NCBI GenBank assembly: GCA_031763025.1
Contig: JASSKH010000031.1
Location: 1,426,001-1,490,000 of the forward strand
Length of the DNA: 64,000 bases
Source of the DNA: Macrocystis pyrifera
Taxonomy: Eukaryota; Sar; Phaeophyceae; Laminariales; Laminariaceae
Reading direction: 5' to 3'
A program made the position numbers and the translations under genes. The first letter of the stretch is position 1. Every line of letters starts with the position of its first letter. The notes beneath the pieces are model-generated. The model was not told the DNA's origin and made no database searches. It saw only the letters and a program-made list of their open reading frames with translations. Positions 574 through 55,296 of this stretch are shown piece by piece.

Positions 574-614
<41 letters not shown>

Positions 615-3323
615 ATTTGTTGCCTGCCTTAGTCATTTGACCATTGGCCACGCATCCATTCGGAGACGGAGCACGGGGCGGGGAGGTGTACTCAATAGGA
701 GAGATGTACTCGATCTCATGCATGGCCGTAGTCGTATGACCATAGACCCTCGCATCCCTACAATGCCGGGACGGAGCATGTCGGGTTTTCACCGACCCGG
801 CAGACATTGCTTGCACCAAGCGCGAAGCGCCGTGAGGTGTCCGGCGAGTCGCATGAAGGGTGAGCTGCATCCTACTAAGAACCGCTTGTGAGGCGGACTT
901 GCATATGGATGACAGCTTCAATGAGCTAGTTTAATTTCCGGTGTGGCCACTTCCAGAGACAGCAATGGGAGTACTATGTAACTGCCTTACCTTGAACACT
1001 ACGTGATACGATCAATTCCCTTGTGCAGAGTAAAGGTTCTTTACTTCGCACAAATGATCTAAGTAGACGACCAGCCATGGGCGACCTCCAAAAAAAAAAA
1101 AAAAAAAAAAAAACGGTACCCTGGATGTCTAGCTCACGTAGTGAGCGGCATGTTTTACAGTGTCGTTGCCAACCGACGCCAACCCAACCCATATATAATA
1201 TATATAATAGGGGGGGGGGATCGGGGGAAGAATGTAACGAAAGCGTTATTGTTGTGTCGAAAAGACGGGGAAGGGGGATTCGTTCTGTGGCAGGTGATGG
1301 GGGGGTGAGTGAGTGTGTGGGGGTGTATGTGCTCGATATCATGCATGGTCGTAGTCGTATGACCACAGACCCTCGCATCCCTACAATGTCGGGACGGAGC
1401 ACGTCGGGCTTTTTTCACCGACCAGGCAGACATTGCTTGCACCAAGCGCGAAGCGCCGTGAGGTGTTCGGCGAGTCGCATGAAGGGTGAGCTGCATCCTA
1501 CTAAAAACCGTTTGTGAGGCGGACTTGCATGTGGATGACTTGTTTTCTGGTGTGGCCACCGGCAGAGACAGCAATGGGGGTACTATGTAGTTGCCTCGTG
1601 GGTGCCTTGCCATAAACACTACGTGATGCAATCATTCCTCTTGTGCGGAGTAGAGATTATTCACCCGGTAAAATGGTCTACAACTCGATCGCTAGCTGTG
1701 ACCGACCGCCGAAAACAAAAAACGGCACCCTGATTGTCTAGCTCACGGAATGGGCAGCAACACAGTGTCACAATGTCTTTGCCAACCGACGCCAACTCAA
1801 CCCAGATATATAATATATAGTGGGGGGGGGAGGATCGGGGAAAAAAATATAACGAAGGCGCTATTGTTGTCACGAACCGACGGGAAGGAGGACTTTGTGC
1901 CCGGTCATGAGCGGGGGGGGCGGGCGGGGGGGAGTGAGTGTGGAGGGGGGGAATAGTGCACGGAAAGAGGAGGAGGGGATGGGAAGGAGGAGCGCAATGG
2001 TAAAGACACACGCACACACACAAAAACATGCACACAATACTTTATAAACCCTGCTACATGCACGTACGAGCATCATTTTTCAGTCAATACACCACAGCAG
2101 AGTGAACCCTCCTTTGCGGAGACAACAACACTGACTGCAGGGATTCATTCATTAAGGGCAGTGCACTACAGTAGAAAAAATGGCTAGCTTCACTCGGACG
2201 GGGTAGAGCGGGCCACCCTGCCGACGGCAGTCACGCTGGGCTTCAAAATCTAAGCTGGTGTTACGACCACGCAAATTGCACAAGAGTCTTCCTTCAGTCG
2301 TCGCTGAACGTACGAAAGTGCGGGTTGGAAAAAAAAAAACGATTCAAAAACATGTCCAGAAGCGGGAACGCTGAAGGAATAAATCCAACGCACGACAAAA
2401 AAAAAAACAAGGCATGTATACAGGGGGGGGAAAGGGAAGGGAAGGGAAGGGACCTGTGATCACGGCCTATTGCCCGGAAGGCCGCTGAAATTTATAACCT
2501 CATGCGAGGTGAGCTGGAAAAGGAAGTCAAAGGAACGGCCAAAATCAAACAGCCTCTCGAAAGATGAGCTCGAAAAGGAAGTGAAAAAAACAAACAAACA
2601 AACAAAAGGAACAAAACACAAACAACACAAAAAAAAAAGCATGATACGTACGCAGTTGTCGCTGTAAAAAAAGCTCTCGCGCGGCGGGATATTTTTGCAT
2701 TGTCGCCAACTCGAGTGCGTTCATAGTCGATCATGAGAATTTGGAGCATCGAGAATGTGAACCTCGGTCGGCGGCCGGTATTACGGGGGTCCATAGTTAA
2801 CAGGACCTATGTCAAACATAAAAACCTATATATTTAGGTACTTTTACTAACAATATTTGGTCCTGCTTACTATGGTCCCCCGTAATAGTAACATAACCTC
2901 GGTTGTAGAACCTGGCTTCAACCAGCTCGAGGGAGGGGGGGGGGGGGGGGGGGGGGGGGTACTTGTAGGCGCGGGGTAAAAAAAAAAAAAACTCGCATGC
3001 GCCTTTTTAGAACTGACTTTTACCGTTTTTGGGGACAAAAATTACTTGAGAAATTGAAGTGTCATATTGGTTTCTGTAGCACAGTGCAGTTCTAAAAGGG
3101 CTTGACAAACTAGTAGGCGGGCACCGTACGGGGAGGGGGGGGGGTTGCCTGCTATGTGACCCCGGATCTGAGCTGCGTACGAAAGGGGGGAAGGGACCCG
3201 GAGAAAGTGATAGTGCGAAAATAGTACGTATATCGTCCTACTGACTCTGGGACTATCACCCAGGGGGGTACTATCACCCAGGAGGGTGCTATCACCCAGG
3301 GAGTAGTGATATTATCACCCAGG

Positions 3324-3374
<51 letters not shown>

Positions 3375-4936
3375 ACTCATGCATGGTCGTAGTCGTATGA
3401 TCATAGACCCTCGCATCCCTACAATGCCGGGACGGAGCACGTAGGGTTTTCACCGGCCAGACAGACATTGCTTGCACCAAGTGCGAAGCGCCGTGAGGTG
3501 TTGGGCGAGTCGCATGAAGGGTGAGCTGCATCCGACTAAGAACCGCTTTAGAGGCGGATTTTCTATCACCCACGGGGGTACTGTCACCGAGGAGGGTGTA
3601 CGAACACTATCACCCAGGGGGGTGTTTATCACCCAGGGGGGTCGCCAACGTGTACGTTCTTCGCAAGGGCTTAACGTACCCCACACGAAGCGTACGAAAT
3701 ACGAGTTTTGGAAGCATCACACCGAACTTACAACGACGAGTTTCGAATTAACCCACGCAGCTCACAAAAGGTGCGTGTTTTCACGATATTTTCGATATTT
3801 CGTCCATCACGAGGTAAGTCGTAGGAGTCTGGCGTATCACTCTGGACGGACGGAAATATAAGGAGCGTTGGGGCATAAACATGAAGTCGAAACGGTACTT
3901 ACGTTTCCGTCCAGAGAGGAGCGCAAAAATAAAATAAAACAGGTAACATCACAGGATTGGTCCCTCTACTGTGCCGGTATCATTGGCACCAGCCAACCGG
4001 CACTATATTGTAGAGCCAACCGGCACTATATACTCCGCACACTGCCACACTGGTGAATTTCATCTGCGCCAAGCGGTCCCGCAGGCACTATAGCGGGCAA
4101 CCGGCACAATTCAATCGGCCCTATAGAGGGGTCACCACTGCCGTAATATACCCTGATATGGGACTGGATGGGACGGAAAATCAAGAATAAAAAAAGTACA
4201 CACCTCCTCGACGGTGGCGAAAAAACAAGTAATTACCCAAAAAACGGTACACCGTATGCCTACCTCTTCGACGGTGGCGAAGCAGCGCTGACATCGACCA
4301 GCGGCCCCAAGCAGCACAAGCGCTCCCTCCAAGCACTGCCAGTCGAAATCGATGCCCCCGTGAGGAGAAAAAGCATCGGCACCCTCACTGGAAACCCCTT
4401 CTGCACGCACCAGTTAGTGTGGGCAGGGAGGGCAAGGGCGAAAAAAAACCGGGTCCAACGAAAAACAAGGTTGCAGCGCGGCAACGAAATAAACACGACA
4501 ACAGAAAAAACAAAGAAAAAAAAAAAACAAGTTAACATCGAACGAATATCGCAAGATACCAACAACATACCTTTACCTGGCTATCAAGATGAGAAGAACT
4601 GTCTGTTCATTGAACAAGTATGGCACAGAGCGAAACAAGAAACGGTAAGGCGTTCAGAAACAAAACAACGGCTGACATTCTGCGAAGAACCGACGGCTGA
4701 CTATCGCAGAAGCTACGAACACATCTATTAATAGCATGACTGCTGTGTTAATGGAATATTACCTTGGCCATCACCACCACTGCTGCCGCCGGGAGAGGAA
4801 AGAGTGCGGCTGTCCCCCTCCGCCCCCCCCGGAACATCCCTCCCAGAAGAGCGGCGGCGGGACTGCTGGGCGGCGTCTCGAACACCCTGCGATGAAGGGC
4901 GAGGTTTTCGACACATGTCGATGGCGACGGAGAGAT

Positions 4937-4979
<43 letters not shown>

Positions 4980-7560
4980 ACTCATTATCATGCATGGCCG
5001 TAGTTGTATGACCATAGATCCTCGCATCCCTACAATGCCGGGACGGAGCACGTCGGGTTTTCACCGTCCAGGCAGACATTGCTTGCACCAAGCGCGAAGC
5101 GCCGTGAGGTGCTGGGCGAGTCGCATTAAGGGTGAGCTTCATCCTATAATACTAAGAACCGCTTTCGAGGCGGATTTTCGTGCGTACGGATGACAGCGTC
5201 AATTAATTTATTTAATTTCTGGTGTGGCCACTTCCAGGGTGGGGGGGGGGGGGGGCATGGGGCTGAGGAGATAGCAGAGGATACCGTGTGGTGCACATTT
5301 TTTGGTGGTGAAGCAAAGGAGAACAACAACCCGATAACATTGAACACAAACGAAGAACAAGAAAACAGAAGAGTAGCCATTTTTAACATGGTGGAAGCGG
5401 CTCCTCAAGAAGGACAGGCGAGGCGAGGCATGCCGGCGAAGCAGAGCTACTACTGCTGTTGCTGCTGCTCCTGCCGTAGCCCCCACGTACTACCACGACG
5501 TTGTACTACAGTCCTTTAACATTCAGCGGGAGAGCTATGTACTGCTGTAGCAATACAGTAGTGGTTTCACGCCATGCTGCAGTAGCTGTATGAGCCCTGC
5601 CGCCGTAGGACAGCTGCAATATTACGGGGGACCATAGTAAACAGGACTCAATATTGTTGGTAAAAATAGGTAAATATATAGGTTTCTGTGTGTACCTTGG
5701 GTCCTATTTACTACAGTCCCCCGTAGTAGCACGACCGTAGCCAACGGTGCACCAGTGACATGATACAATAATACCAGGCATGCTTTAAAAATCGCACGTG
5801 ACACGAGTATCGTTTTGGTGGCTGTACAATACCAGGGACGTAGGTCATGGAACTGGCTGTCATCCTTTAGGCCCCGACCGGAGGTTCTTTTGCCTCGTAT
5901 TCCTACCTACCTGTACGAGCGTCCTTGCGACTCACTTTTTTCGTGAACGCAATGAGCTATGTACCGCGAGAACGCAAAGAAAAAGCGATGACAACAACAG
6001 CAGTTACAACAGCAACCGTTTTTCCTTAGCGAACTGCGGCCTTAGCACTGCCGGGCCACCAGTTGGCCGTAGAGCTGCCGTCCTACAGTACAGCTGAGTA
6101 GAAAGTGTTGTTTTCTTAGCACTGCTTGGCTCGCCACTCTTGGCTTCCCACCACTTCTGTCTTCCTACAGCCTACCAGTCTGTCCCGATTCAGAAGGAAC
6201 CTGCCGTATTCAACATCAACATCAACATAGAACATCCCTTCTATTTTGGGCCAGAGCAACATACTATTATATTGCAGCCGTGGTACTTCAGCCAATCTAA
6301 AGCCACCAAACATGAGTCGTCATCTGCCCATCACATCGACACCGACACTAACCATCAACCCAAACCAGACAGCACCAACGCACACCAGCCCAGCAACGAA
6401 CACTAAACCATAGCAAGCACTGAACAAAACCGAGCACAAACAACACCACTCCAACATGACCCCCACCACTCATCACCCGAAGGCTGCACACGCTTTGGCC
6501 AGGCTCCGGCCCAGCTCCGACAACATGGTTGATTGAAACGCCGTAAAGAGCGTTGAGTTCCGCACATAGGCGCGATCGTTTTTCAGCGCTCGCTTTTTCC
6601 AGGAATTTTCCAGTACGGAAAGGTTGCCAATACCGAACAAGAACCGAACAAGGTGTTTTCGGAAAGATCTGGTCGAGATCCTTCCGAAAATAGAACATTC
6701 GGCCTTTATGCACCCTTACCGTCGTCAAGAAAAAAACGAGAGCCGAAGTCAACGCTCTTTACGGTACGCTATATAGAGTTTCAACCCCACCCTTAATATC
6801 CCGACCGCCTATTAATAGGAAAAATCTCACAGCTATTACGTAATGAGGAATTTGCGTGGAATATCAACCATTTTTGTCCCCGGAAAATGTCTCGGAACGA
6901 AGTTAAAATGTGGAGATAGTGTGGAATGTCAACCATTATCCAAAGGGAAATTTCTCGGAATGAATGATGAGGATTTCGTGTGGAATATCAACTATTATTT
7001 ATTGGGAAATTTCTCGGAATGAAAATACAATGAGGATATAGTGTGGACCGCTAGGTATCAACTATTTGTCGAAGCTGGGCCAAGTCGTACACACCCAACA
7101 CAAAACACCCCCCACACAAATCATTCACCTTGCGATAATCTAACAACCCTTTACTGGGTGTACCTTTCGGTAGCAACCTACATATAAAAAATATATACAT
7201 ACATCATACCTGAAGTATATATGATATACACATGCGTAAACTCAATATACTCCTGTATATCGTTGAATTTGGCACCAGGTGTTGAACATCTCATAAACTA
7301 TCGCTGTATATACCAGAGTATTACTCACAATATATACCAAAACCGTAAAATGCGTGTCACGATGCGTGTCACGTGGAACAAAACACACCTTGATGAAGGC
7401 AGAGAGAGAGAGTCCGACACTTCTTTCAGGAGATCCCTCGCCTGGTACCCCGCGGTCAGCTCTGTGCACCGACCCGCCGCCTGCCCAACCACCGAAAAAC
7501 CCTTTGTGGACTCGTCGGCTACCTGAACCATCCGAGAAGAGGGAGAGGAGGAGTAGAGTA

Positions 7561-7591
<31 letters not shown>

Positions 7592-10500
7592 GGGAGGGAG
7601 GGAGGGAAGGAGGGAAGGGAGAAGGAGGGAGGGAGGGAGGGAGGGAGGGAGGGAGGGAGGAGGGGGAGAGGAGGGAGGGAGGGGGGGAGAGAGGGGGGGA
7701 GGGAGAGGAGAGAGGGGGGGGGCACCGCTTAGGGGTCGGTTCGGGGGCTTCCAGGCAGAAGATACACAAGCAAAAAGCCCCAGACGTATCCGGTACCAGG
7801 TATCAAGAATCGAGCATGTATCCAACACCAAACAGTAAACATCACAATCGTAAAAAAGACAAAAATCAGTACTATACGTCCTGAATATTTATGTATTCAT
7901 ATGTATTCGGTACGGTACCGGTACCAAATACCAGTGCCAAATATCACGTCTTTTGAAAAGAAAAAGAAGAAAAGAATAATTACCACTTGAATCACAATAA
8001 TCCAAGTAGTTCAAAAAATCAATTTAACCCAATCCCCCACGCGAGTTAGATCATTTTTGTGCGAACCTTCCCTGCGCACAAGGGGGATGATCGCATCACG
8101 TAGTGTGTATACGGTAAGGCACCCACCCACGAGGCGGTTACATAGTAAACCCATAGCTGTCTCTGGAACTGGCCACGCCAGAAATTAAATCAATTCATTG
8201 ACGCTGTCATCTATATGCAAGAAAATCCGCCTCCTCTAAAGCGGTTCTCAGTAGGATGCAGCTCACCCTTCATGCGACTCGCCCAGCACCTCACGGCGCT
8301 TCGCGCTTGGTGCAAGCAATGTCTGCCTGGTCGGTGAAAACCCGACGTGCTCCGTCCCGGCAATGTAGGGATGCGAGGGTCTATGGTCATAAGACTACGG
8401 CCATGCATGATAATGAGTACCCCCCCTCCCCACTGCCCCTTGCTAACACAATGGCTCTCGCCCAAACCCCACAAGATATCGAATTTCGAATATCGAACAT
8501 CGAATATCGGATATCGAACATCGAATGTCGAATACCACACCGGAGGGCGGGGGGGACGGGAAGCACAACGTTGCCTTAAAGAGAAAGGTGTCGCCGCACC
8601 GCGCGTGAGCGTAGAGGTCAGCTTGAAGGCTTCCTGACAACAGATGCCGGCTACCGACACGACTTTCTCCGGACCAAAACGGACCGTTTCGTTATGAATC
8701 CCTCCGGGACCCCTTTGATAGCGACCAAAACAATGGTTGTCAAACTTTGATGCTATCAACGCCTACGAGCAGCGTGAACGCCCAGCCGTACGGCTATAGG
8801 CTATGCTGCGCCCGAGCCGTACATTGTAGTAAATCGGACACCGATTTGTGCCACCCCCCTATATAATCACGCAAAAATGGCCGTAACGTTGCTGTAAGAA
8901 TCGCCACATGATATCGCCAAATTCCCTATCTCAAGTATCAGGAGGGGGATGAAACGAATGTTATACACCTCGAATAGAATCATAGATCATCTACAGATCA
9001 TTATCACTTCATGATCTAGATGTGTCAGGGCAGATAGATCATCTCTGATCTGTATATCTGTATGATCTAGCTCATGTTGCCACGTGTGTGTGACAGGGCA
9101 GATATACTCCTGATATGTATGGTCTACCTCGTGTTGACAAGAGGGAGCCGTACTGCAATCCGCATGATCTACGAGTAAGACTTGCTTCCTGGGTTGGATC
9201 TGTACCGTACAGATCCTTCACAACATATCATAACGGCATGACAGGACCTAGATCTACTGTAGATACGTAGTTAGATAGATCATGATCTGTGCATCGTGAT
9301 CTGTTCGATGTGTGAAATACTCAAACTGTCCTCACATTTCCTGGACAAAATAAATACTTGGGGCTGGGCACCGGCTGGCTCAGTCAGTAGCGACGATACT
9401 GTCGTCAAAATCAATCAAATCAGTATACTGGATTGCAGCAGTGTACTGTCTCTCCTCACTCCTCTCTCCTCCCGAGACGCATTTAGCGGGTCTCCGTACT
9501 GTAATATGGCGTGTTTCTTGTAACGCACGTGATAGATACTCCTGCAGAATATACTGGCCAGGTCAAACCAGTAGATTACTACTGGCAGTATATTTACTAC
9601 TGTACTGGCAATACATACTGTGCCAGTGTACCCAAAGACTGGTACCAAAGGCATCACACAACACGCTTCACCTTCAGCATCACATGGTACGAAGTACTAC
9701 ATCTGTTAACATAGTGTACTGTGCCTGATGTGTTGTATGCGAAAACAGTGTCACTCCGCAACACCAGAACAACCGCGTACTCAACGTATTTTCTCCCCCC
9801 CCCCCCCCCCCCCCCCCCCCCGTGTGTTACAAAAAATTTTCCTGTTTGATTGATCACCGAGGGCGCAGTCGTACCTTTCGTCCATGGCCATCGACACGCC
9901 TGGGGTAACATAGTCCCTGGGAAATATTATAACACACCGAATACCGTAAGGAGTGAATGAAGACCGTTGACATCGCACAAGGGCGCTACCATCGTTTTTC
10001 AGCGTTCCGTTTTTCCAGAACGGGAAGGTTGCCATAAACCGAACAACAAAGGAGGCGTTTTCGGAAAGATCTGGTCGAGAGCCTTCCGAAAATATGACGT
10101 TCGACTCTTAGCACCGCCATCATTCATTTAACGAGAAAAATTTCAATACCGCTCAAAAGCGACTGCACTCCAGTGCGAAAGCATCGGTCTTTACGGTATA
10201 CCAACACCAACACCAACACCTCCAACGCAATCAGCCCACCAACACCACGACCACTACCACTACCAACAAGAACAACAGCTATGGTCGTAGTCCGTTTCTT
10301 ATCAGGTGCATAAATAGCAATCACAACCCACAAAAAAATAACTTGCTGTGGGGAAAAAAATGACCAAACTTCCGTTTTTTTTTTTTTTTTTTTCCTAACG
10401 ATAAGTATGCTTGGGTCGGGTTTCCTAGTTGGGTTACTCTGTAGGTTGTTAGGAAACGGAGCAACTTCTGACTCGGCTAGGGCCTTCGGATTCAACTGCT

Positions 10501-12523: not shown

Positions 12524-12555
<32 letters not shown>

Positions 12556-15157
12556 TTCTATCCCCCCCCCCCCCACCCCCCCCCCCCCCCCCCCCCCCAC
12601 CCCCCCCCCCCCCCCCCCCCCATCTATCCTCACCCCGCCCAAAAAAAAAAAACATCGTCCACTATCCCCAAGCCTCGCTCCCTCACCTGTCCTGAATGGG
12701 CCGAAACGCCGCCGCAGACGATAGCAAAACCGCCATAAGGTCTCGCTCGCTCGCACCCCTCGCCAGCTCCAGCGCCTGACCGACGAATCTCAGCACTTCC
12801 GTCAGCAAACCGACGGCATCCCTCCAAGGAGCGGCTTCCAGGTGTTTCTACAAGGCGGTGGTGGCGGTGGCGGAGGGGGGGGGGGCAGTGGGGAGGGGGT
12901 GTATTCGATATCATGCATGGCCGTAGTCGTATGACCATAGACCCTCGCATCTCTACAACGCAGGGGCGGAGCACATCGGGTTCTTATCGACTGCGCAGAC
13001 AGTGCTTGCACCAAGCGCGAAGTGCCGTGGGGTGTTCCGCGAGTCACATGTAGGGTGAGCGGTATCCTACTAAGAACCGCTTGTGAGGCGGCCTTTCTTG
13101 CATGTCGATGACAGCTTCCAATAAATAGAGGGGAGCGGGGGGGGGGGGGGGAGGGAGGGTTTGGGGGGGGGGGGGCGTACTAATTTGTTGCCTGCCTTAG
13201 TCATTTGACCATTGACCACGCATCCCTTTCGAGACGGAGCAGCTTCGGGGGGGGGGGGGGGGGTAATATGATGCTGTGCCAGGGCGAATTAAACTTTTTA
13301 CTATGAATGTTAATAGTGCAATACATAATTATATTACCCTGATTCAACCTACGTGGTTTATCCGAAAAAAAAAAAAAAATGAAAAAAATGGAGTGCATGC
13401 AGTTAAATTTTGAAGGTCTTGATTTCTTCTCTTACATACCCCAAAAAATGATCAAAATCTAAAACCAGGCGGAACACTGGTGGGGGAGTAGTAACAGGGG
13501 CCATGCCTTTGAACCGTTTTTACTCTGGCATCAAAAGCTTATCATCTGATGTCAAGTAGGCTGGACGCCAAAGCACACTGCCATAATAAGCCTGCAAGGA
13601 GCCGATAAAAAATCACACCGCAACACGTATCGTCGAATACATACCCTTGCATGAAAGGAGCCAGTCACAAATCACACCGCAACCTGCCGTCGAATACATC
13701 TTCTCACACGAAAGGAGCCAGCCGCAAACTACATCTCAATATATCGCCGAATACATCTTACATGAAAGGAGGAGCCAATCACAAATCACACCGCATTGTT
13801 CAGCCAATTACCAACCACAAAGCAACACCGCAATGTACAGCCACTGTACAAAGCACACCGCAGTGTGCAGCCAATCACCAGTCACACTGCGACGCATGCC
13901 ACCCCTTTTCACCTGAAAGGAGCCCAGGAGCGGCTGAAAAGCCACGACCACCAGCTGACAGAGCACCGCGGGAGAATTGTCGGAGCCGAACAGGTCCGAA
14001 GTCCTCTTTCGCTCATCCATCATTGAGCCCTAGGACAGCGCCGAAGAACGAACACGACAAGCAACGGAGAATTGGAACATTGACGCCCGCAACGATAGGG
14101 CACTACATAGCACCGGGTTGAGGAGAACCGACCCGCGACAAGACCCATACCCCACGGGTCAGTCGGAATCCGGCGGGTCGGGTCGGGTCGGGTCGGGTCG
14201 GGTCGGGTCGGGAGTAAGCGATTTTTTACTGAAAAAAAAAAAAAATTGCAAGCCCGATACCCGATCCCATGGTGGCTAGGTATCTAACGTACAGTTTGTA
14301 TACAAATATGTAATCAAAATGATAGTTATATTTCGGGACAGAGGGGTATTCTAAAGTAGTAGCGGTCCCTCTATAGTGCCGGTTGCCCGCTGTAATGCCT
14401 GTGAAAACGCTTGGCACAAACAGATGGGATTAACTATTAACCAGCGTCGTGTTCGGAGTAGTACGTTGGTGCCGCCTGCCGCCATAGTGCCAGCCGGCAT
14501 TGTTGGCCGGCGCATACACACCGACCGGCACTAACGAGAGGCCATTTTCTGTACCGCTGTGAAATACACGTCGGATCTGGAGGAAATTGCGTAGCTCGTC
14601 GCATGAGAAAGCTCCGTCATTAGCCAGAAGCGTCTGGGCTGTACTAAAGTCAAGTGAAACCCCTAACCCCTACGGCAGCACGCCTCCTTGAGGACCTCTG
14701 TATAAATAACCTCCGAGGAAAGTTATACGCGCCACCCGTGCGACAATGATGACGATGACGATGATGACGATGACAATGATGACGATGAGGAGGAGGACGA
14801 GGAGGAGGAGGAGGAGGAGGAGGAGGAGGAGGAGGAGGATGACGATGTTCTCACATTATTACTAGCCCATGTCCCTGAAATCTAGCCCCGTGGTCATGAA
14901 ACACGGAACAATAGAGTAGGCTCGGTGCAACAAGAAAAGAAAATGGAAGCAACCCTTCGGACTGTAACAAAAGTTTGGGCTCTAAAGCGCATCCCCAATA
15001 CCTGTAGAGCATAAGAGGAGGTACGGGGTCGGGGCCTAGGGAGTAGGGAAACCCTTTACACGTAAAGCCTCCTATGGCTATATGGGTGATCGGTGCTTGG
15101 CGAAACTCCCTACATATGGAGGTTAAGATGAGGTGGTGGTTGGAGATTCGTCCTGAT

Positions 15158-15193
<36 letters not shown>

Positions 15194-16439
15194 ACAGCTC
15201 CGTCTCGAAAGGGATGCGTGGTCAATGGTCAAATGACTAAGGCAAGCAACAAATGAGTACGCCCCCCCCCCCCCCCATACAGTACGCTAATCGCGTCCTA
15301 CGATAGAGGGGTAGTGTAGCATATCGCATCGGAAGTTTCGATAAGTTTCGAAATATCGAACTTTCGATACATCGTAATAGACATCGATTTTTTTTTTTTT
15401 TGCCCTACATCCCCCGACATCGCCGGGTTTTTCAAGCAGATATTGAACCAAAGCATTCAACGAAATCCAAAAGTTGAGATCGTATCGGTTACCTTTTTGT
15501 TCGTCGGTATCGTGCCGATCTCAACCATCGTTCGATCTCCAACACTGCTCTACCCACTTCTGAAAAAACATTTTTGATGCGCGGCAGAACTCATTCGTGG
15601 CGTACCCCATACGTGGCGCAACCAAGACGCCGCGTGACAACCCAGGCGCGCACCTGCAAGTACTCGAGGAAAGAGGGAAGCCACCTGGCCAGCCCGTTCC
15701 CCGTCGCCCCTCCGGTCGAAACGCCTCCACCGCGAGCGGGGGAAGGGGAGGGGGGGAAGACGAAGACGCGGAGGCGAACCAGCGTTTGTGGGCGGCGGCG
15801 GCCTTGGTCTTGCAGTAGTCGCTCCTGAACACGTCGGTTCGGCCTAGCTGTCGGTACATCAGGGCGTACTCGGCGAGCGGCCCCATGCGGTCTTTCTTCA
15901 GGACCTGCGTTCGATGGAGAATATGAGCGATACTATAGAGTTAGTAGAGATAAAACGGCATGAATATTGGTTCTTAAGAAGGGAAGAAGAATGTCAAGGA
16001 ACCCAACGACACCGCCCGTTTCAAAACCAAGCATCACCCGTAAGAGATATGCTTTGAAAGCGGTGAGCTCGCACAGGGGTACGATCGTTTTTTAGCTCTC
16101 GGTTTTTTCTAAACCGGGAAGGTTGCCAATACCGAACAGTAAGGTGTTTTTCGAAAAGGTCTGGTCGAGAGAAAGCCTTCTAAAAATAGAACGCCCGACT
16201 TCAGCACCCTTACTGCCGTTGTCAAGAGAAAAACTATCACACCCCTGTGCGGACTCAATGCCCTCTACGTTTATCGCCCTCATGCTGTCCTTCTCCAGAA
16301 CCTGCGCGCGGTGAGCGGCGAGGCAGCGAAAACAAAACGTGCGACACGACCACAACACGAGTAAACAAAACGTCTATCGCAACCAACCACCCACGCACCG
16401 ACCCACCAACGCACATTCATAGACGCGGGGACATCACAC

Positions 16440-16480
<41 letters not shown>

Positions 16481-17009
16481 AACCCCCGGTTGGGTTGGCG
16501 TCGGTTGGCAACGACACTGTAAAACATGCCGCCCACGACGTGAGCTAGACATCCAGGGTACCGTTTATTATTATTATTTTTAATTTATTTTTGGCGGTCG
16601 CCCACAGCTGGACGTCTAGTTAGATCATTTGTGCGAAGTAAAGAACCTTTACTCTGCACAAGGGAATTAATTGATCGTATCACGTAGTGTTCAAGGTACG
16701 GCACCAAAGAGGCAGTTACATAGTACTCCCATTGCTGTCTCTGGAAGTGGCCACACCGAAAATTAAACTAACTCATTGACGCTGTCATCCATATGCAAGT
16801 CCGCCTCACAAGCGGTTCTCAGTAGGATGCAGCTCACCCTTCATGCGACTCGCCGGACACCTCACGGCGCTTCGCGCTTGGTGCAAGCAATGTCTGCCTG
16901 GTCGGTGAAAACCCGACATGCTCCGTCCCGGCATTGTAGGGATGCGAGGGTCTATGGTCATACGACTACGGCCATGCATGAGATCGAGCACATCTCTCCG
17001 ATCGAATAC

Positions 17010-17044
<35 letters not shown>

Positions 17045-20000
17045 TACCGACCCTTCAACCCCTGCGTCTTAGAGACAAGGAGAAATACAGTCTATAGACC
17101 CTCTCTCCCCCACCCCAAACGCCCATCCACCCATCCACCACCTGCGCATCGAATCGATAAGGGGACGTGACACAGACCCTCACTCCATACACAGATCCTC
17201 ATCCTCTACACCCACCCACCCACCCACCCTTCTACTCACATCATCGACGATCGATGGAAAACCTTCACTAAAGCAGACTTTGCGCCGGCCACTGACGTTG
17301 TGTTTCTTTCATTCTAGCCAAGGGGACACCACACAGACCCCGCCCTCGCCCACCCACCAACCGACCCACCGATCAGCCCATCCGCCCACCCACCGACCCA
17401 CCGACCAGGCCACCCACCTCCAGCAACTTGGGCTGCAGCAAATCCTCCAGCCTCTCCTGCAAGCCCGTCAGAGTCGCGGCACGGTCCTCTGCCTCCGGCA
17501 TGTCTTTCAGGACGGTCATGCTGCCGACCATCGCCTCCAGCCTCGCCGCCACGCCCTTCAAGTCGTCCTGTCCGAACCTTTCCGACCAAGACATGAAAAA
17601 GCGAAAAAGTGTTTTTTTTTTTTCAACTTTTGGTGCAATGGAAGGTTCAGACAAGACAACTTTTAGAAATATCATTCGTACACGGAGCTCTCTTCAAGGA
17701 CGATTCTTCGCTGAAGGTTTTCCAGGGGGAAAAAAAAAAATAGCGCAAGCTTCTTTTCGCGGAAGTTTCCCCATGAAGTATCTTCACCCAAGCTTCTTCG
17801 CGGAAGTTTCGTCACAGGCGTGTTTCGCCTACTGTCTTCAAGGAATTTTTATCGCGGCAGTGTAGGTTTCTCCACGCTAGTATCTTCCCAGAAATTTCTT
17901 CAGGGATGTTTCTCCACGAAAGTATCCCCACAGCGGGATAACTTTCTCCACGGAACTACCTCCACTGAATTTTATTCGCGAACTCTGTTCGTCACCGAAT
18001 GTTCTTCGAATTTTTCTTCGCAAAAGTTCTTCGTGAAAAGTAAATCACGGGTCGGAAAAGAAAGAAAGAGTAAGGCTGTTTCATTTGCGGTTCGATTTCG
18101 AGCTTCAAATTTTGATTTTTCGATCCCAACAGTGCAAGCATCTGTTTATGCAGTCCGAATATGCAAAATCTAACCGGAATGTATTCGATTTTGATAATCC
18201 GACGGCCCAAGTCGTCATATTTTGGCCCGAAATCCGACGACTTGGGTCATCAGATTTTCGAATAAAAAAACGGCATGATCTTTTAATTCAAACTATTGTC
18301 CACGACAGCAAGCAGCAGCAGAACGATCGATGATTGGATGGTGATACAGCTGTATAGCGACGTTGCTTCGCACCCTACGCGCGGGCGGTGCGTCTCTCTG
18401 TAGCCAGACTACATGTCGGCTGGCGCTGGGTCGGGCCCAGAGACCAAGAGAAGCGTACTCGGCGGGCACCTCTCCGTGGATACGTATTCGTAGACTACAG
18501 CAGAAGCAGCACTCTATCACCTTTCGAAACACCGGTACAAAATACCAACACAGGTTGTCTCTCGCGCACTCGGCACGTCTCTTCGTCGCCAGACCAAAGG
18601 CAGTCAGCGTTGGCTGGGACGCTTGGGTCCTACGTGCAGTGCAGCACACCCAGCGCGTCTGTTCGCGACGCCAGACCACAACAACAGCAGTTGGTCTCGG
18701 CGTTTGCTCGAATCTCTTCGCGCACAATAAATCCGATCTTTCCGCATAGGAAGACTGTTTCGGTCCGCGAACTTCAGAGCTGAAAAAGCGTTCGGGTCAA
18801 AATCTGAAGCTCCAAATCTGAACCGCATAGGAAACAGCCAAACAACAAAAGAGTGATGCAGCAGCCCAAAAAAGTCTATATGTATTATTTATCGCTGCGT
18901 ACGATAGGGGTGCACCTAAATTTTGTTCTGAGGGACTCTCCCTTCAGGATTTATATATGCGTCGGGTATATATCACCGGAAAAAAAAATAGCCGCGTCAA
19001 GAAGACTATATACGCGCTCGATCCCATGAGCGATATAGCCCATGGCCTACGATGTATGTTATCGAAAAACATTGGGGGGAAAGAAAAAGAAGGTAAGGTA
19101 TGCCTCCTTATTTGGTAGTTCTCCGGTGCCCTTGAAGAGCCCCATCAGCCAGAAATATGTGGGCCCAAAAAAAGGTACAAGGTACAGTACCCTTATGCAG
19201 TAGGAGCACGCGCCCATCAGTTTTTCACTTTCCGGCTAAACCCGCAGGAGGCTTTATTTGCCCTTGGAGGCCTTCTCCGACGAAGAGCGGTCACAGGTGT
19301 CGTCCATTCCCCCCCCCCCCGGTATATAACTTGATTACAGTCTAGGCCCGCCAGCAAGAAACACCCAGTCTGGGCAAGCCTTGGAATCTACACCGATTTT
19401 TGAAAAACCTTGAGCATATAGGCTACTATGTAGGATTTTGGTGTATCGTTCGCCGCTGAAGCACGGTTTCTACATCCGATGTTCTCCAGTGTCCCCCAAA
19501 AATTGAGCTTCGTGTTCTCATTCTTTTATCATGAAATTTGTTGTTCGTTGGCTTGTACTGCTGTACGGGGCTCCGATCTTATCGCGCAGAGGGCTTCAGC
19601 ATTCCCACTGCTCGGCAATTGGCATCCTGTGCACGGCTCGGATGCACCGATGCACTAGCGGTACAGCACACTCATTCATGAAGAGTTGACACCTGGTATG
19701 AATAGTATTTTACTATCACGGGGGACCATAGTAAATAGGACACAATAGTGTTATTAAAAATAGGTAAAATATATAGATTTTTATGTGTATCATAGGTCCC
19801 ATTAACTATGGACCCCCGTAATAGTAATAAACAACAAAAGGCTGGCTCAAGGCTGGGTTTCTTGTTTGGGAAAAGGGTGCACGCATTCTACGCTAACTTC
19901 AGTAAAACGACTCCCGATTTTTTTTTTCCTGGCAACTTAAGCCTGCCTTTCTTAGTGCTCGTTTTCTTAGTATTCTACCCAAGTACCAGTCCTGTACTGC

Positions 20001-23000
20001 ATGTCGACCATTTAGTAAAAGTTGGTCCAAGCCGTACCGCATCACCCGGGTGATAATATCACACAGCCCCTAATACGGGGGACCATATTAAACAGGACCT
20101 ACGGTACGCACAAAAATCTATATATTTCCCTATTTTTACGAACAATATTTGGTCCTATTTACTATGGTCCCCCGTAATAGGAAGATTTTTTTTAGAGCAG
20201 ATTCTTCTCCGAAACCATGTCTTAAGGGGGGAGCATCCAACAACAAAAAATAAAAGCGGCTTGGGGAAGATTTCGCGGTGGAATAATTGCCATATCGACG
20301 CGTCGCTCGTTTTTTGCACTCTCCGCGTTGTCGAGAAATTCCTCTTTTGAAATGCGTCCGAGGGGGGGGTGTTATCTTAATCACCCTAGTGTGATGATAT
20401 TAACACATTAACCGGTTTTTGTCGAAGCTGTGGCAGGTCGCGTGCACGGCTCTAGCGTATAGAGCTTGGCCCCAGCCTCGAGGTGTACACCTTGGACAGA
20501 TCATCTGACAAATCATTCCCACTTCATGATCGTCTAGATATTTCAGGGCAGATAGGTCATCCCTGATCTGTATGCTCTGTATGATCTAGCTCATGTTGCC
20601 GGGGGGGAGCCGTGTAATCTGCATGATCTACCACACGTTTCCTGGGTTGGAGCTGTACTACCGGTACGCAGATCTTGCACATCATCTCACGATGGCAGGT
20701 GAGGAACTAGATGATCTGCTGTAGATAGATCAGATATATCATCATCTGTCCCAAGGTGTGCAACTGTGTCAACGGCCTCTCAAGCAAGTCCTTCTGTCTA
20801 GCCCCACCTAGCGTTGACCTCGCGGACGAGCGCGTTCCATGACGCAGCCTCCGTGAGCGTGTGCAGGCAGTCTCCCATGTGTGTCTTCACCAGGTCCAGC
20901 CGAGCCAGGGTTTCCACGTGGGCATTCGCTCCGTGGTCGATCTCCTCCAGCTTCCGGCAAAACACAGCGAGATAGAAGGTACCAGGTACGCATTAGGAGG
21001 CGAGGACAGGAGAACCAGTGCACGCAATACGGCAGCTCTCTTTTCTTCTTTTCAGTCTGTTCCTTACATTTTTGTTGGAGCCTTTTCTTCCGCGCTGTTT
21101 GAACCTGTCTTCGCTACGTACCACTGATCATGGTAGACGATAGCGACGAGTTTGTACGGTGGGAAAAGAATGACATCAACGACAACAATAGTAACAGCAA
21201 AACCAAAATCGCTTCCACTACCACCACCAATACCACCATCACCATCACTACAAACGCCTACCGCAAAACCACCTCCACCACCACCACCACCACCACCACC
21301 ACCACCACCCGCACCACCACAACCGCCACAACTACTGACACCAACACCCCCCCTCCCCCATCAACACCACCGCTGTCCCCCCCCCGCCTCCTCTCCTCCC
21401 ATTCCCCACAACCCGCCCAACCTCCGACATACCTGACCAGAAAGGTTGCTGAGCTCGGCGTGGAGCGTCTTGATAGACGCCTCGACCCTGTCCACCTCCG
21501 TCACCACGCGTGGCACGGACACCATGATCTCAACCATGCTCTTCTCCAGCCCCGCGTTGATGCTAGTCGACACCGCCTGCAGCTTCGTCGCGACTGTAGA
21601 CAGGTGCGTATCTAGGCCGCTGGAAAAATAATGAGGCCACAACGGGGGGGGGGCAGGGAGCGCGGTGAGGGAGGAGGTTAGGTTGCTGCTGTTGGAATAT
21701 CGCGGCAGTGGCAGCGGCGGGGGGGGGGGGGGGGAGAGGGGGAAATATGCCTAACTGCTGCACTGCATTATCGAAAACTCGTGGGGGAAGGGGCGGGGGG
21801 GGGCTTGTCCAGGGCACTGGGGGGGTGTTAGGCTGATGCTGCTGAAATATCGTGGGGGCAGGGGTAGCGGCGGTGGTTGTGCGGGGTGGGGGGGGTACTT
21901 ATTTGTTGCCTGCCTTAGTCATTTGACCATTGACCACGCATCCCTTTCGAGACGGAGCACCGTTAATACTCCTAATAGAGACACCTCCAATAATTGGGCG
22001 CTCATTACGTTGTTTCCATATATTACACAGAAACTTTTTGTTAATGTTATCCACTTCCTGTCTGGCCGCCTGCGGCCACCATCTATCTCCTGGGATAGCG
22101 ATCGTTTTCTCGTTGATATCTAGTGTATCACACTCCTCCATGTCGCATGCGTCTATTTCCTTCATCTCTTCTTCTAACACATCCCATCCCTCCTTGTATA
22201 TTTCACATTCTCCTATGTGAGTTCTACTCTCCATTGCTTTGCCGCACGGGCACATCTGTGCATCTACTTCCTCCTCCTCCCGGCTACTGGTAAACCTCTT
22301 TCTTCTTTCTGGTGGGTCCAGGTCACCTACACGAAAGCGCAGTTACAGCTTTATCGCGAAGTCCACTGGGCCGTGCACATACGTTTTCATTCCTATTCCT
22401 TCCCTCAACCCCCTGTATATCTCCAAGTGTTTTTCCGAGTCCACCTTGTTTCTTAGCGCTGGCCTTTCCCTTCTTTCTATCATTTCTTCTACTTCTGCCT
22501 TGTACAGCCCAAACTTCCCGGCGGACATCACCTCTTCTTGGTTCCCCCCTATATCCTTCCATACTTCTCAACTAGCTTGCTGCTGACATATCGAGGTGGT
22601 AGCGGGGAGGAAGGGGATACGTACTGAGGTTTGCCTCTAAAACATCGTGGCAGTAGAGGGGGGGGGGGGGGGAAGTTTGGTCTGTAGTCTATGCTATGCA
22701 TGGCCGTAGTCGTACGCCCGTAGACCCTCGAATCCCTGCAATGCCGGGACGGAGCACGCCGTGTTTTCATCGACCAGGCAGATATTTCTTGTGGACCCAG
22801 CGCGGAGCGCCGTGAGGTGTCCGGCGAGCCGCACGAAGGGCGAGCTGCATCTAGCTAAGAACCGCTTGTGAGGCGGATTTCGGTGCCTTGTGCGTCCTTT
22901 CTTGCGTATAGTAGATGTCAGCGTCGAATTATTTGTAGATGGGGGTATCGAGGTTGCTTCTAAAATATCGCCGCGGTAGAAGGGGAGGGGGGCGTATCGA

Positions 23001-33268: not shown

Positions 33269-33330
<62 letters not shown>

Positions 33331-34259: not shown

Positions 34260-35457
34260 GCACGTGGCTCTGGCCGTGGCAGTGGTCTTGGTGCTCATCC
34301 TCAGCTTGGTCAACGGGCCTGGGGAGTGGCCACGGAACGTGAGCCTCTCATTGGCTGACATCCTTTTTATTTCTTGATTGATTTGGCTGATAGGTTAGTT
34401 GGTTGATTATGCCACCCATTCATTGGTTGACTGGTTGGTTCGTTCGTTAGTGGATAGGTTGATTGGTTGATAGTCGGTTCGTCATTGGTTGCTCGCGTAG
34501 TCGTTTGAGTGATTGATTGATGTTGATTGGTTTATTGATTGTTGGTTGATCCGGTTTTTCGCTATGATTTGACTGACTGTGGTTGCTTGGTTGTCTGATT
34601 CACCTGCGTACCCGGTAGCTGGGTTGCTGGGTTGCTTGGCTGGTTGTCCGAATCGTTTATTTTTGACGCAGTTAGTGTTTTTTTTTTTTCTCTCCTTGGT
34701 TGACTTGCTCGTATTGTTTTGCTCTATAGATTGATTGGTTGATTTCCTCTGGTTGGGTAGCTTGTTCTTACGTGGTTGTTTTGGTATTTTTGTTTTTGGA
34801 CTGACTTGCTTGCTTTCTCTACGTAGCTTTATTGATGATTGGCTCTCATTGGCTGACTCGCTATCTCTTTTGCTAGTGAGCTTGATTTCTTGATTTTTGT
34901 TTGGCTGAATTGCCGCTGTTTGCTAGCTAGCTTGTTGAAGATGGATGTGATTTTGATCGAGATGTTGGCTGGGTGTGATGTCCGAGCGCAAGGTGCTTCA
35001 AGGGAGTGTTGGGTTCTCCAGTATTTTCACTTCCAAACATGGCGGGGGGGTTGTTCCAGTGCTCGCCATGAAACGCAGCAGAAATGACCGGTTATTTATC
35101 CTGCTCCGGTTCACCCCCCACGGTGCTCCGTTAAAGAGATGCGTAGTCAATGGTCAAATGACTGAAGCAAGCAACAAACGCGTACGCCCCCCTCTCCCCT
35201 CCCCCTCCCTCCCTCCGCTGCCTCCGTCTCCCCCCCTCTTCGATCGATTGACATTGTGGCGGAAACACACGGTCCAGCTCGAGAAGGGAGCGTTCCCGGC
35301 GTGTTTCATGGTGGCATCTGGCGTTATCGCGTGGAACTCCTTCCTGCGTGAGGCCCGGTCTTTCGGGGAGGGGAGCGCGAACGACTTCGTCCCCGCCCTT
35401 GCTGCCATGGTCGTTGCGTGCATTGGGGCCTCCGCTGGTTCCAAGATGCAAGCTTAG
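34260..35457 (+). CDS. Small membrane protein 3 (unrecognised, 5' exon missing)
   Basis: Internal exon 34260-34338 after acceptor ggaacag: HVALAVAVVLVLILSLVNG ... EWPRN, clearly membrane-spanning; donor CGGAAC|gtgagc. Terminal exon 35278-35457 after acceptor ggtccag: LEKGAFPACFMVASGVIAWN, NDFVPALAAMVVACIGASAG, ending KMQA and TAG. Phase is 0 between them. Three hydrophobic helices are thus predicted over about 85 residues. The first exon, ending in phase 2, was not found upstream. The intron holds LINE debris (35121-35187) and a ttggttgatt simple repeat. Family unknown. Confidence 0.62.
34370..34930. repeat. (TTGGTTGATTGG)-like simple repeat
   Basis: Degenerate 4-base (ttga/ttgg) repetition over more than 500 bp. 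A complementary caatcaatcaactgat tract lies at 39595-39845. Confidence 0.8.
35121..35187 (+). mobile_element. LINE 3' end fragment
   Basis: ggtgctccgttaaagagatg and gtcaatggtcaaatgactga, followed by a C-rich tract. Same end as the LINE at 21893-22575. Confidence 0.7.
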
Positions 35458-35880: not shown

Positions 35881-36024
35881 CGCCTGAACCATCTGCAAAC
35901 CTTACCCCATTCAAGTTCCAGGTATCATAGTGTGTTCCCGAAATGTGGTTGCAGGTTAGAGCTGAGCTGCCTTGTGGCGATGAAGCGCAACGTAGGGAGG
36001 TGGAGGGAGGGGGGGGGGTGTATT

Positions 36025-36245
36025 CATGTCATGCATGGCCGTAGTCGTACGACCGTAGACACTCGTATCCCTACAGCGCCGGGACGGAGCACGTTGGGTT
36101 GTCACCGACCAGGCAGACGTTGCTCGCAACCAGCGCGAAGCCCCGCGAGGTGTTCTGCGAGTCGCGTGGAGGGTGAGCTGCATCCTAGAAATAATCGCGT
36201 GTGAGACGGACTTTGTTGCATGTGGACGACACGCGTCGAATGGGA
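36025..36245 (-). mobile_element. Poly(C)-tailed SINE-like element, copy 9
   Basis: After G8, tattcatgtcatgcatggcc to aatgggatataagg. Diverged core. Confidence 0.75.
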
Positions 36246-36913: not shown

Positions 36914-37052
36914 GGGGGGGGGGGGGGGGGGGGGGGGGGTGTACTCATTATCATGCATGGCCGTAGTCGTATGACCACAGACCCTCGCATCCCTACAATG
37001 CCGGGACGGAGCACATCCGGCTTTCACCGACCAGGCAGACGTTGCTTTGGGA
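36914..37052 (-). mobile_element. Poly(C)-tailed SINE-like element, copy 10 (tail only)
   Basis: G26 (36914-36939), then gtactcattatcatgcatgg to ggcagacgttgcttt, where it breaks off. Confidence 0.78.
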
Positions 37053-44939: not shown

Positions 44940-45335
44940 GGGGGGGGGGGGGTACTCATGCCATGCATGGCCATAGGTAGTCGTATGTCGATAGACCCTC
45001 GCATCCCTACATGCCGGGACGGAGCACGTTGGGTGTTTACCGACCAGGCAGACATTGCATGCACGAAGCACGAAGGGTCGTGAGTTGTTGGACGGGTCGA
45101 GCGAAGAGTGAGACTCATCCTACGTACTATTACGGGGGTCCATAGTTAATAGGACCTATGGTATACATAAAAACCTATATATTTACTTATATTTACTAAC
45201 AAATTTTGGTCCCGTTAACTATGGACCCCCGAAATAAAAAGAGCCACTTGTAATGCGGCCGTTCTTACATACGGATGGCAGCGTCGAATACATTGATTTG
45301 TTTTCTAGTGTGGCAACTTCCATGGTCACTAGATT
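44940..45335 (-). mobile_element. Poly(C)-tailed SINE-like element, copy 11, split by a family C MITE
   Basis: G tract and atgccatgcatggccatagg at the left, broken at 45126 by a 110 bp palindrome, then resuming aagagccacttgtaatgcgg and acggatggcagcgtcgaata. Confidence 0.78.
45127..45236. mobile_element. Palindromic MITE family C, copy 7 (inside SINE-like copy 11)
   Basis: ctattacgggggtccatagt to ctatggacccccgaaata. Its position inside copy 11 shows that it is younger than that copy. Confidence 0.85.
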
Positions 45336-52950: not shown

Positions 52951-53634
52951 AGACCCCAAGCTCCGGTGATGGCAAACAACGGCCGATGTACAGCAGAGGG
53001 GGCTTAAAAAAGTGTTCGAGGGTGGCGGGCTATGTCACCTACTCGGCTCGGCGGGGCGGAAAACAATCCCTTGTTTTTTTAGAGCCAACTCGGCGACGTT
53101 AAATGCCCCGAGCCCCGCAACAGTGCTCGGCCGGTATCCAGACATGCGTCGTAATGTACCCACGGCCCGCTTGCTTGCCCCGCAGCCGAAAGTGCGAGAA
53201 AGAACCCTCGGCCGCCGGCGAGCAGCATGCCAAAAAAAAAAAAAAAGTGCGTCTTATACATACACATATTTCCGTCTCATCTATACCTGGTACCAGTTAC
53301 CGGGTGTTGTCTTACTTTGTTTACTTTTTTACCCTTCTTCTCCAGCTTGCCCCCAATCATACCTGATATCAGGCTCATGTAGCGGGCACCTCTTCTCCAG
53401 CTTGCCCCGGATCGTACCTGATATATGGCTCATGTAGCAGGCACCGTCTCCCCTCCTCACTCATGATGCATGTCTTCTTCTTTGTCGCGGGAAAAGTTGA
53501 GCATTGCCTTCCCACGTCGGCTCGCGTCGAATCATGCTCACGCATCGAATCATGCTTTAACACACTTATTTTAAGGCGCCTTCTGCAGTCAATTTTCGCA
53601 CAACAACAAAAAACACCTTGGGGGGGGGTGTACT

Positions 53635-53898
53635 GGATAGGAGAGATGTACTCGATCTCATGCATGGCCGTAGTCGTATGACCATAGACCCTCGCATCCC
53701 TACAATGCCGGACCGGAGCATGTCGGGTTTTCACTGACCAGGCAGACATTGCTTGCACCAAGCGCGAAGCGCCGTGAGGTGTCCGGCGAGTCGCATGAAG
53801 GGTGAGCTGCATCCTACTAAGAACCGCTTGTGAGGCGGACTTGCATATGGATGACAGCCTCAATGAGCTAGTTTAATTTCCGGTGTGGCCACTTCCAC
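53635..53898 (-). mobile_element. Poly(C)-tailed SINE-like element, copy 12
   Basis: Close to copy 1 in sequence, including gatgtactcgatctcatgca. The tail is a short G8 tract; the head is replaced by a tRNA-like sequence after 53900. Confidence 0.82.
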
Positions 53899-54418: not shown

Positions 54419-55296
54419 GTAAGGGGCGTTTGCACCCCCCCCCTCCCCCCCCCCCCCCTCATTACACCCCCCCCCCCCCCCCCCCCCCCCCTTTTGTTTT
54501 GTAGAGCTGCCAGCGGGCTGGACTTGCCGGCTACCGGTTACCAGGTATATAGTATTAGTTTATTAGTTGGGTAGCACAACGCAATCAGCCCTGCATACAG
54601 CAGCGAAGCACGTACGTGCCGTTCAGAGCGCGACAACGCAAGGAAGCAGGCAGAATGGGCGAAAGCCAGCATGTCATCGAGAATCTACTGCTCGTTTTTT
54701 TTTTGTTTGTTTCGCGGGTATTTTTTCAACGTGCACATGGGAGGTACTACAATGCTGTAGGTTCGTACACGTTTAGTTCTGCGGCTGCTCCTTGCTCAAA
54801 TCACAAAAAAATACACGCACACAGCTCCTACGTACGTGGAGCTACCGTGTTGTCATCGATAATCTACTGCAGGCACAGCCCAGCGCAGCGCAAGCAAGCA
54901 AACAGAGTTAGCGAGAGCCACATCATGTCGTCCAGCATACCTGGTTTATGTCTACCCCTCGCGCGGTGTTTTCAAAACGAGCGAAGAAATTGAAATCTGC
55001 CTGGCCACAAAAAAACATACCACCACTTTCAAGGTTATGCACGAAGGGTTTGCCTTTTTTCCAATCTCAGCAGTAAGATACAACACTACAGCGCCCTTTC
55101 ACTCCATCCTTTCTCTTTCGTACATGCATGCGGTGTCCGGGTTGGCCTCCTTGAGCGTGGAGCTTCTGGCGCTTGCAAGTCGTCAGTTTTCACCTTAGTA
55201 TCGACCTCTGCCCGCTTCATTCACACGCGGTGCTTTGTTCTGTTCTTCTGTTCTGTGTGAGCGAGCGTAGCAAGCGCAAGCCGCCCGCGGAGCGAA

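Follow-up and report, generated by a model that had tools for sequence, protein, structure and literature searches.

What do the runs of C that border two repeat families in this kelp genome represent: tails that the elements carry with them, or sites into which the elements insert? The question arises from a stretch of 64,000 nt (the window; G000:C213:1426001-1490000) that contains remnants of a LINE and copies of a short dispersed element, and for which a sequence-only reading had proposed that both families share a 3' end, that they are followed by poly(C) rather than poly(A), and that a non-templated or C-tract-primed step might be part of their mobilisation. We followed the two families through the window and through one genome of 537,376,219 bases in 223 contigs.

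The reference short element, SINE-like and with a tail that we call type A, occupies 16480..17010 (+), its 5' end having been compared across copies. Directly 5' of it lies a C38 tract (16442..16479, +), in our reading one side of a duplicated C-tract target, and a C34 tract follows it (17011..17044, +); the span 16442-17044 originally assigned to the element was right in location and took in both tracts. The element is ~0.55 kb long and runs from a TA-rich start via GGTTGGGTTGGCG to its 3' block (16918..17010, +). Homology with the 3' end of the LINE covers 16918-16991, and the type A tail extends ~20 nt further, ending GAATACA. The LINE is represented by a 5'-truncated remnant that retains the C-terminal coding part (about 21895..22574, -) and ends ...GGGATGCGTGGTCAATGGTCAAATGACTAAGGCAGGCAACAAATAAGTA, followed by a C8 run (21888..21895, -). 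The shared block is ~75 nt long and collinear, with the layout GTGCTCCGTC...GGGATGCG...ATGGTCA...GACTA...GAGTAC; its local alignment score of 74, where 200 dinucleotide shuffles reached no more than 46, marks the sole significant homology found between the two families and bears out the proposal of a common 3' end with its blocks in the same order. The ending atgagtac proposed for both is found in most of 57 tails, but the two copies named for it read ATAAGTAC and GAATACA. There are two types of short-element tail: type A contains ATCGAGTACA twice with TCTCTCCT between (window 16985-17010 and the type A copies), and type B ends in ATAATGAGTAC. RNAalifold folds the shared block with a terminal stem GTGCTC/GAGTAC, nearly all pairs being invariant; with a double change in just 1 of 15 predicted pairs, a conserved RNA structure is a suggestion only and was not retained.

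Because the 3' end is shared, the short element is likely to depend on the LINE reverse transcriptase, having, as its sequence suggests, borrowed the last ~75 nt of the LINE; the 3' homology, together with an insertion habit common to both families (see below), supports this part of the sequence-only reading. Whether it should be called a SINE depends on how strictly the word is used. ARAGORN found no tRNA gene in the window, and Rfam gave no family for 16400-17100, the sole match up to E 1 being a chance one (E 0.29); the element is therefore no SINE in the strict sense, which calls for a Pol III head from tRNA, 5S or 7SL RNA, and is one in the loose sense of having a 3' end in common with a LINE of the same genome. 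A loose first look returned 3755 short-element candidates genome-wide, 40 of which were scored; this figure and the other first-look counts (16,921, 632 and 1351) come from differing types of search and were taken neither for copy numbers nor for evidence of a gradient of truncation. In a set of viral contigs, pattern scans gave 0 matches and a related-locus search found no relative; in a set of genome contigs there were 6 pattern matches, none of them a relative by tblastn.

The autonomous partner is a LINE by its reverse transcriptase, its apurinic-type endonuclease, and its 5' truncation with target-site duplications. In the window remnant, frame 3 translates into the LINE C-terminus with a C-x-C...H...C motif, which by eye lies close to the C-terminus, and stops appear further upstream. 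Other LINE copies supplied the reverse transcriptase domain (PF00078, E 1.2e-30), which in the PDB retrieved R2 and L1 chains among 10 matches (best E 1.5e-19), and the copy L077 supplied the endonuclease (PF03372, E 1.3e-11), for which a PDB search by sequence gave zero matches. The longest copy used measures ~5.26 kb (L075, 2063-7318); its 5' end is based on few copies and its frame is broken, and the domain searches took open pieces only. Nearly all copies are 5'-truncated, 57 of 58 beginning within the reference, a set in which at least one entry, from L077, arose when the aligner split a copy with an internal deletion. We observed that the stop codon of the LINE, a TGA in AACAAATGAGTACG, lies inside the shared block and ~5 nt from the C-tract (L061, 5178-5187); with the stop so close to the tract, the 3' block recognised in the RNA would be coding sequence, and the 3' UTR would be nearly nil. 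We also considered whether the last 66 nt evolve more slowly: two LINE copies agree there at 64/66 positions and in other windows at 57-62 of 63-66, a difference too weak to be accepted. The name RTE-X may be applied to this LINE by analogy with the elements of PMC12477816.

To describe the flanks we used sampled loci, dropping 8 of 77 (L001, L031, L065, L066, L068 and L073 as overlapping; L022 and L028 as near-duplicates of L021) and 31 of 181 copies whose 3' end was not reached or which stood at a sequence edge, so that 150 copies were usable. The near-identical flanks around one short-element copy in L021, L022 and L028, on the small contigs C84, C55 and C77, are probably assembly or segmental duplicates. 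The sampled loci were picked partly by similarity and their copies are not independent events; genome-wide pattern counts are free of this bias and see exact-match copies only. The genome-wide counts of 5' flanks were taken on the reverse strand with each site counted once, the forward gapped counts taking every start in a run.

Behind the elements, a C-run of at least 7 lies within 40 nt in 121 of the 150 sampled copies, and a G-run in 0/150; genome-wide, on both strands, 2719 of 4017 exact LINE ends GCAACAAATGAGTACG pass directly into CCCCCC. The window copies have a run of at least 7 in 13 of 17 cases with a range of 4-49, which makes the earlier statement of 7-50 C in nearly every copy slightly strong. 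C-tracts stand in front of the copies as well, a feature that the sequence-only reading did not mention. In the 40 nt that lead up to the 5' breakpoint, a run of at least 5 C is present in 123/150 copies and such a run of G in 4/150, compared with a C-run in 6.0% of 5000 window 40-mers taken as control; a T-run of at least 5 is found there in 7/150. The right end of the C-run is 0-9 nt from the breakpoint in 104/150 copies (G-run, 0/150). Front C-runs are found likewise in incidental copies, which were not the reason for fetching their locus (61/76; G-run, 2), in window copies (12/17; G-run, 1), in copies without a neighbouring copy within 100 nt (84/106), and in LINE copies that start inside the LINE (44/57; G-run, 1); C-runs at such internal starts mean that the 5' C-tract there is not part of the element. 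Genome-wide, C6 stands within 30 nt upstream of 939 of 1153 short-element 5' ends and G6 upstream of 2/1153, and C6 stands within 10 nt upstream of 370 of 2171 LINE 3' blocks, which are then ~66-nt copies, and G6 upstream of 1/2171 (all on the reverse strand). Most copies sit at one kind of sequence, as is characteristic of target-specific non-LTR elements; 27/150 sampled copies have no C-run of 5 in front, and 214/1153 short-element 5' ends no C6 within 30 nt. C microhomology at the 5' junctions is suggestive only (20/37 against 35% expected, and at least 2 C in 9/37 against 9.3%), BLAST end extension affecting these figures. Among the C/G runs of at least 12 in the window, 15 of 33 touch a copy of either family in the right orientation. 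Long C-tracts at 12525-12621, 33270-33330, 9795-9821 and 54445-54491 touch no recognised copy in that orientation; they are possibly empty targets or belong to other families.

If the tract in front is a target, target-site duplications should tell. We took the letters that follow the 3' C-run and sought them directly behind the C-run in the 5' flank, with loci L078-L085 added for this test and 151 of 158 copies usable. Duplications that begin within the C-tract and extend beyond it score at least 8 in 12/151 copies, where mismatched pairs lead one to expect 1.15 and the maximum in 5000 permutations was 6; an earlier version of the test gave 9/143 against 0.87 expected, and a variant with C-runs cut at 40 nt gave 10 matches of at least 8 letters against 5.85 expected under an inflated null. 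One clear case, L038, reads C7GTACCAGGT in front and C19GTACCAGGT behind (letters GTACCAGGT). Others, with the C's in front and behind, are L036 (C24/C22, TGTCGCCGC), L012 (C15/C9, ACCAAAA), L083 (C57/C8, TACACACA) and L064 (C3/C40, TGGTAAT), and by eye we add L003 (TATGGTCATACGACT), L075 (GGAC), L002 (~57 letters with one mismatch) and, in the window, a truncated short element at 53629..53897 (-) with C11TCAAGGTG as 5' flank and C9AAGGTG as 3' flank, where the duplication AAGGTGT adjoins the C-tract. The remaining 139/151 copies have no non-C duplication at a score of at least 8, and we assume that all-C duplications fit many of them. The expectation that duplications flank the element together with its C-tract is therefore borne out among the readable cases, none of which excludes the tract, but most copies are without a readable duplication.

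The same cases bear on whether C's have been added. With readable duplications, the 3' C-run is longer than the 5' one in 4/5 LINE copies and shorter in 5/7 short copies, which implies that C's are added only in some; some LINE copies, such as L064 with 3 C in front and 40 behind, are far richer in C behind. Added C's are thus real in some copies and unneeded in others, and a short tail or slippage may supply them at some LINE 3' junctions. At the other end, filler of more than 1 base separates the duplication from the short element in 3/7 listed copies and is C-rich in two (L009, L016), with zero such filler in the five readable LINE copies; C's between the duplicated letters and the 5' end are also visible by eye in L002 and L003. 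Filler containing C may stem from a leader of C's in the RNA or from addition at the RNA 5' end, and part of the C's at the 5' side of the short element could then come from RNA.

Because C-tracts flank most copies with C on the sense strand, because the duplications start in the tract, and because the LINE copies are 5'-truncated, we hold it to be highly probable that the LINE and its short partner insert at pre-existing C-tracts by target-primed reverse transcription in which a nicked G-run provides the primer. What has been taken for a 3' poly(C) tail would then largely be the downstream copy of the target tract, with extra C's in some copies. In such a scheme the LINE protein would nick the G strand within the G-run or at its edge, the G-rich 3' OH would pair with the element RNA at its C-rich end and so serve as primer, and the shared 3' block would be where cDNA synthesis begins; the other strand would be cut from a few to ~15 nt past the tract, and extra 3' C's, where present, might derive from the RNA end or from slippage. 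One C-tract would become two with each insertion, so that old copies would themselves become targets and, as the chains described below suggest, head-to-tail chains would grow. Of the two forms of the poly(C) idea in the sequence-only reading, the C-tract-primed step therefore gains support, since C-tracts precede the copies and the duplications begin in them, and a purely non-templated tail is unsupported as the main explanation because it leaves the C-tracts in front of 5'-truncated copies unexplained.

The reverse assignment, in which the RNA ends in poly(C), whether templated by read-through or untemplated, insertion is otherwise unselective, and the front C-tracts are the tails of earlier copies, would account for the longer 3' C-run of 4/5 readable LINE copies and agrees with the frequency of head-to-tail neighbours. 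We nevertheless consider it unlikely, and reject it as sole and main cause, in view of the front C-run in the 84/106 copies that have no neighbour within 100 nt, even if older, unrecognised copies could explain some of these; the shorter 3' run in 5/7 readable short copies and the ratio of 370 to 1 between C6 and G6 before the ~66-nt LINE copies speak against it as well. It is very unlikely that the front C-tract is instead the element's own 5' end, a transcribed C leader rather than a target. The C's in the filler that precedes the 5' end of L009, L016, L002 and L003 would suit such a leader in the short element, but the C-runs before 44/57 LINE copies stand at varied internal starts where a leader is impossible and contradict it for the LINE, and in L012, L083, L036 and L038 duplicated non-C letters come between the C-run and the element; a leader as sole cause was accordingly rejected as the main explanation.

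Events after insertion might also be invoked. Homopolymers are unstable, and the near-identical small contigs of L021, L022 and L028 might seem to favour an origin of chains and flanking tracts in ectopic recombination between C-tracts, slippage or assembly joins; this would leave unexplained the C-runs at arbitrary internal truncation points, the duplications that reach beyond the C-run, and the strand bias, and we rank it as the least probable of the alternatives. Mobilisation of chains as units, with RNA reading through a C-tract into the next element so that a pair is copied together, is quite improbable, somewhat less so than a C leader: head-to-tail chains do mix LINE and short copies, and a ~70-nt flank is repeated in the window (1210-1278 and 1824-1892), but the pairs differ in members and breakpoints among the 40 of 42 rows compared.

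We return to insertion at pre-existing C-tracts and to the chains that it would produce. When a copy has a neighbour no more than 100 nt upstream, the two nearly always point the same way (41 pairs; opposite orientation in 1 pair), as expected if new copies land in C-tracts beside old ones. One chain of the window consists of a LINE mini copy (611..674, -; C37 behind), a nearly full-length short element as its upstream neighbour (687..1209, -), and a third member, again a short element, 117 nt from the second (1327..1819, -). The ~70 nt of 5' flank before these two short elements are 81% identical, and represent either a tandem duplication or a target-site duplication that is long and old. Elsewhere, a mini copy with C17 in front and C13 behind (13177..13241, -) has a truncated short element downstream (12900..13118, -; C15 in front). 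Truncated short elements with C's on both sides lie at 4981..5237 (-; type B tail, C15 in front and C41 behind) and 36944..37047 (-; C13 and C26). Runs behind were noted for those at 3377..3564 (-; C49) and 8044..8417 (+; type B, C7), and three others have a run behind and no C-run of 5 in front: 22683..22880 (-; C15), 36019..36231 (-; C10) and the internally interrupted 44962..45322 (-; C15).

Truncation is not uniform. In 11 of 57 internal-start LINE copies the start falls within the same 9 nt, where the shared block begins, and this clustering yields the mini copies of ~66 nt that consist of the shared 3' block only. The window contains four of them, the two others being at 15197..15260 (+; C35 in front, C15 behind) and 35120..35185 (+; C6 on either side), and there are many genome-wide (370/2171 on one strand); copies well under 60 nt fall below the search threshold, so that the limit of detection could account for part of the ~66-nt peak. 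Short elements show preferred stops too, 3 of them at the homologous place (position 455) and 5 at 430-432. Taking these features together, we entertain, with belief evenly divided, the broader notion of a target-breeding system: the LINE and its partner would prime from G-runs, each insertion would duplicate and often lengthen the C-tract and so provide new landing sites and polarised head-to-tail chains, and the same 3' RNA block, overlapping the LINE stop codon and leaving ~5 nt of 3' UTR, would both recruit the enzyme and cause the frequent stops that give ~66-nt mini copies.

In L1, the strand of a homopolymer serves as primer beside a homopolymer end of the RNA. On our reading the kelp elements resemble L1 in this use of primer strand and RNA end and in that the tract merges with the start of the duplication, the mammalian L1 target being given as TT|AAAA in the available part of PMC13295347. 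They differ in the proposed G-run primer and the C tract instead of a T-run and poly(A), and in that the short partner has the LINE 3' end, which L1 partners are without. Closer in taxonomy is Ectocarpus, also a brown alga, where the part of PMC12477816 at hand describes RTEX-N1_Ec32, a ~600-bp non-autonomous element of more than 6000 copies and unknown 5' origin, whose 3' end matches the autonomous LINEs RTEX-1/RTEX-2_Ec32. A LINE/short-element pair with a common 3' end is thus already known from Ectocarpus; the likeness is one of description, and that part of the account mentions no C-tracts or target preference.

Common 3' ends are also described for RTE-clade pairs of reptiles and plants, such as Bov-B with Sauria SINEs, and plant RTE, in the available portion of PMC13295347, where the insertion signature has a T stretch ~10 nt before the duplication and the duplication starts with a letter that matches the 3'-end repeat. 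The kelp pair is alike in its common LINE/SINE 3' end, in this match of repeat and first duplicated letter, and in having a target homopolymer in the insertion signature. Unlike that T stretch, the kelp C-tract abuts the duplication or sits inside it, and the upstream T-run itself is seen in only the 7/150 copies noted above. As for repeated targets, the accessible section of PMC4640811 places target-specific non-LTR elements mostly in early-branched, Tx1 and R1 groups, and gives as microsatellite-specific elements Togen at (TG)n and some HERO families, along with members of the Tx1 and R1 clades. These share with the kelp elements a strong preference for one repeated target, with simple repeats among the targets, but the section names no C homopolymer and assigns target-specific families with an apurinic-type endonuclease to Tx1 and R1. 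Our literature search, in which terms like poly(C) are unsearchable and subscription papers under-covered, found no report of C-tract targeting by such elements; this targeting is apparently new, and the sharing of 3' ends between LINE and short element is known.

If correct, our reading adds a case of strict target choice in LINEs with an apurinic-type endonuclease, otherwise placed in the Tx1 and R1 clades in the parts of PMC13295347 and PMC4640811 available. A homopolymer target used on a fixed strand would provide a simple system in which to test how insertion sites are set by primer-RNA pairing and by the choice of the endonuclease. It would also offer a possible origin for many C-tracts of the kelp genome (15/33 of the longer window runs), explain the polarised repeat chains, and caution against taking such C-tracts for tails. 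Apart from the repeats, the window has at 47821-49797 (+) a 658-residue open frame with cysteine-rich stretches, which we take to resemble PHD-type zinc fingers as a candidate motif.
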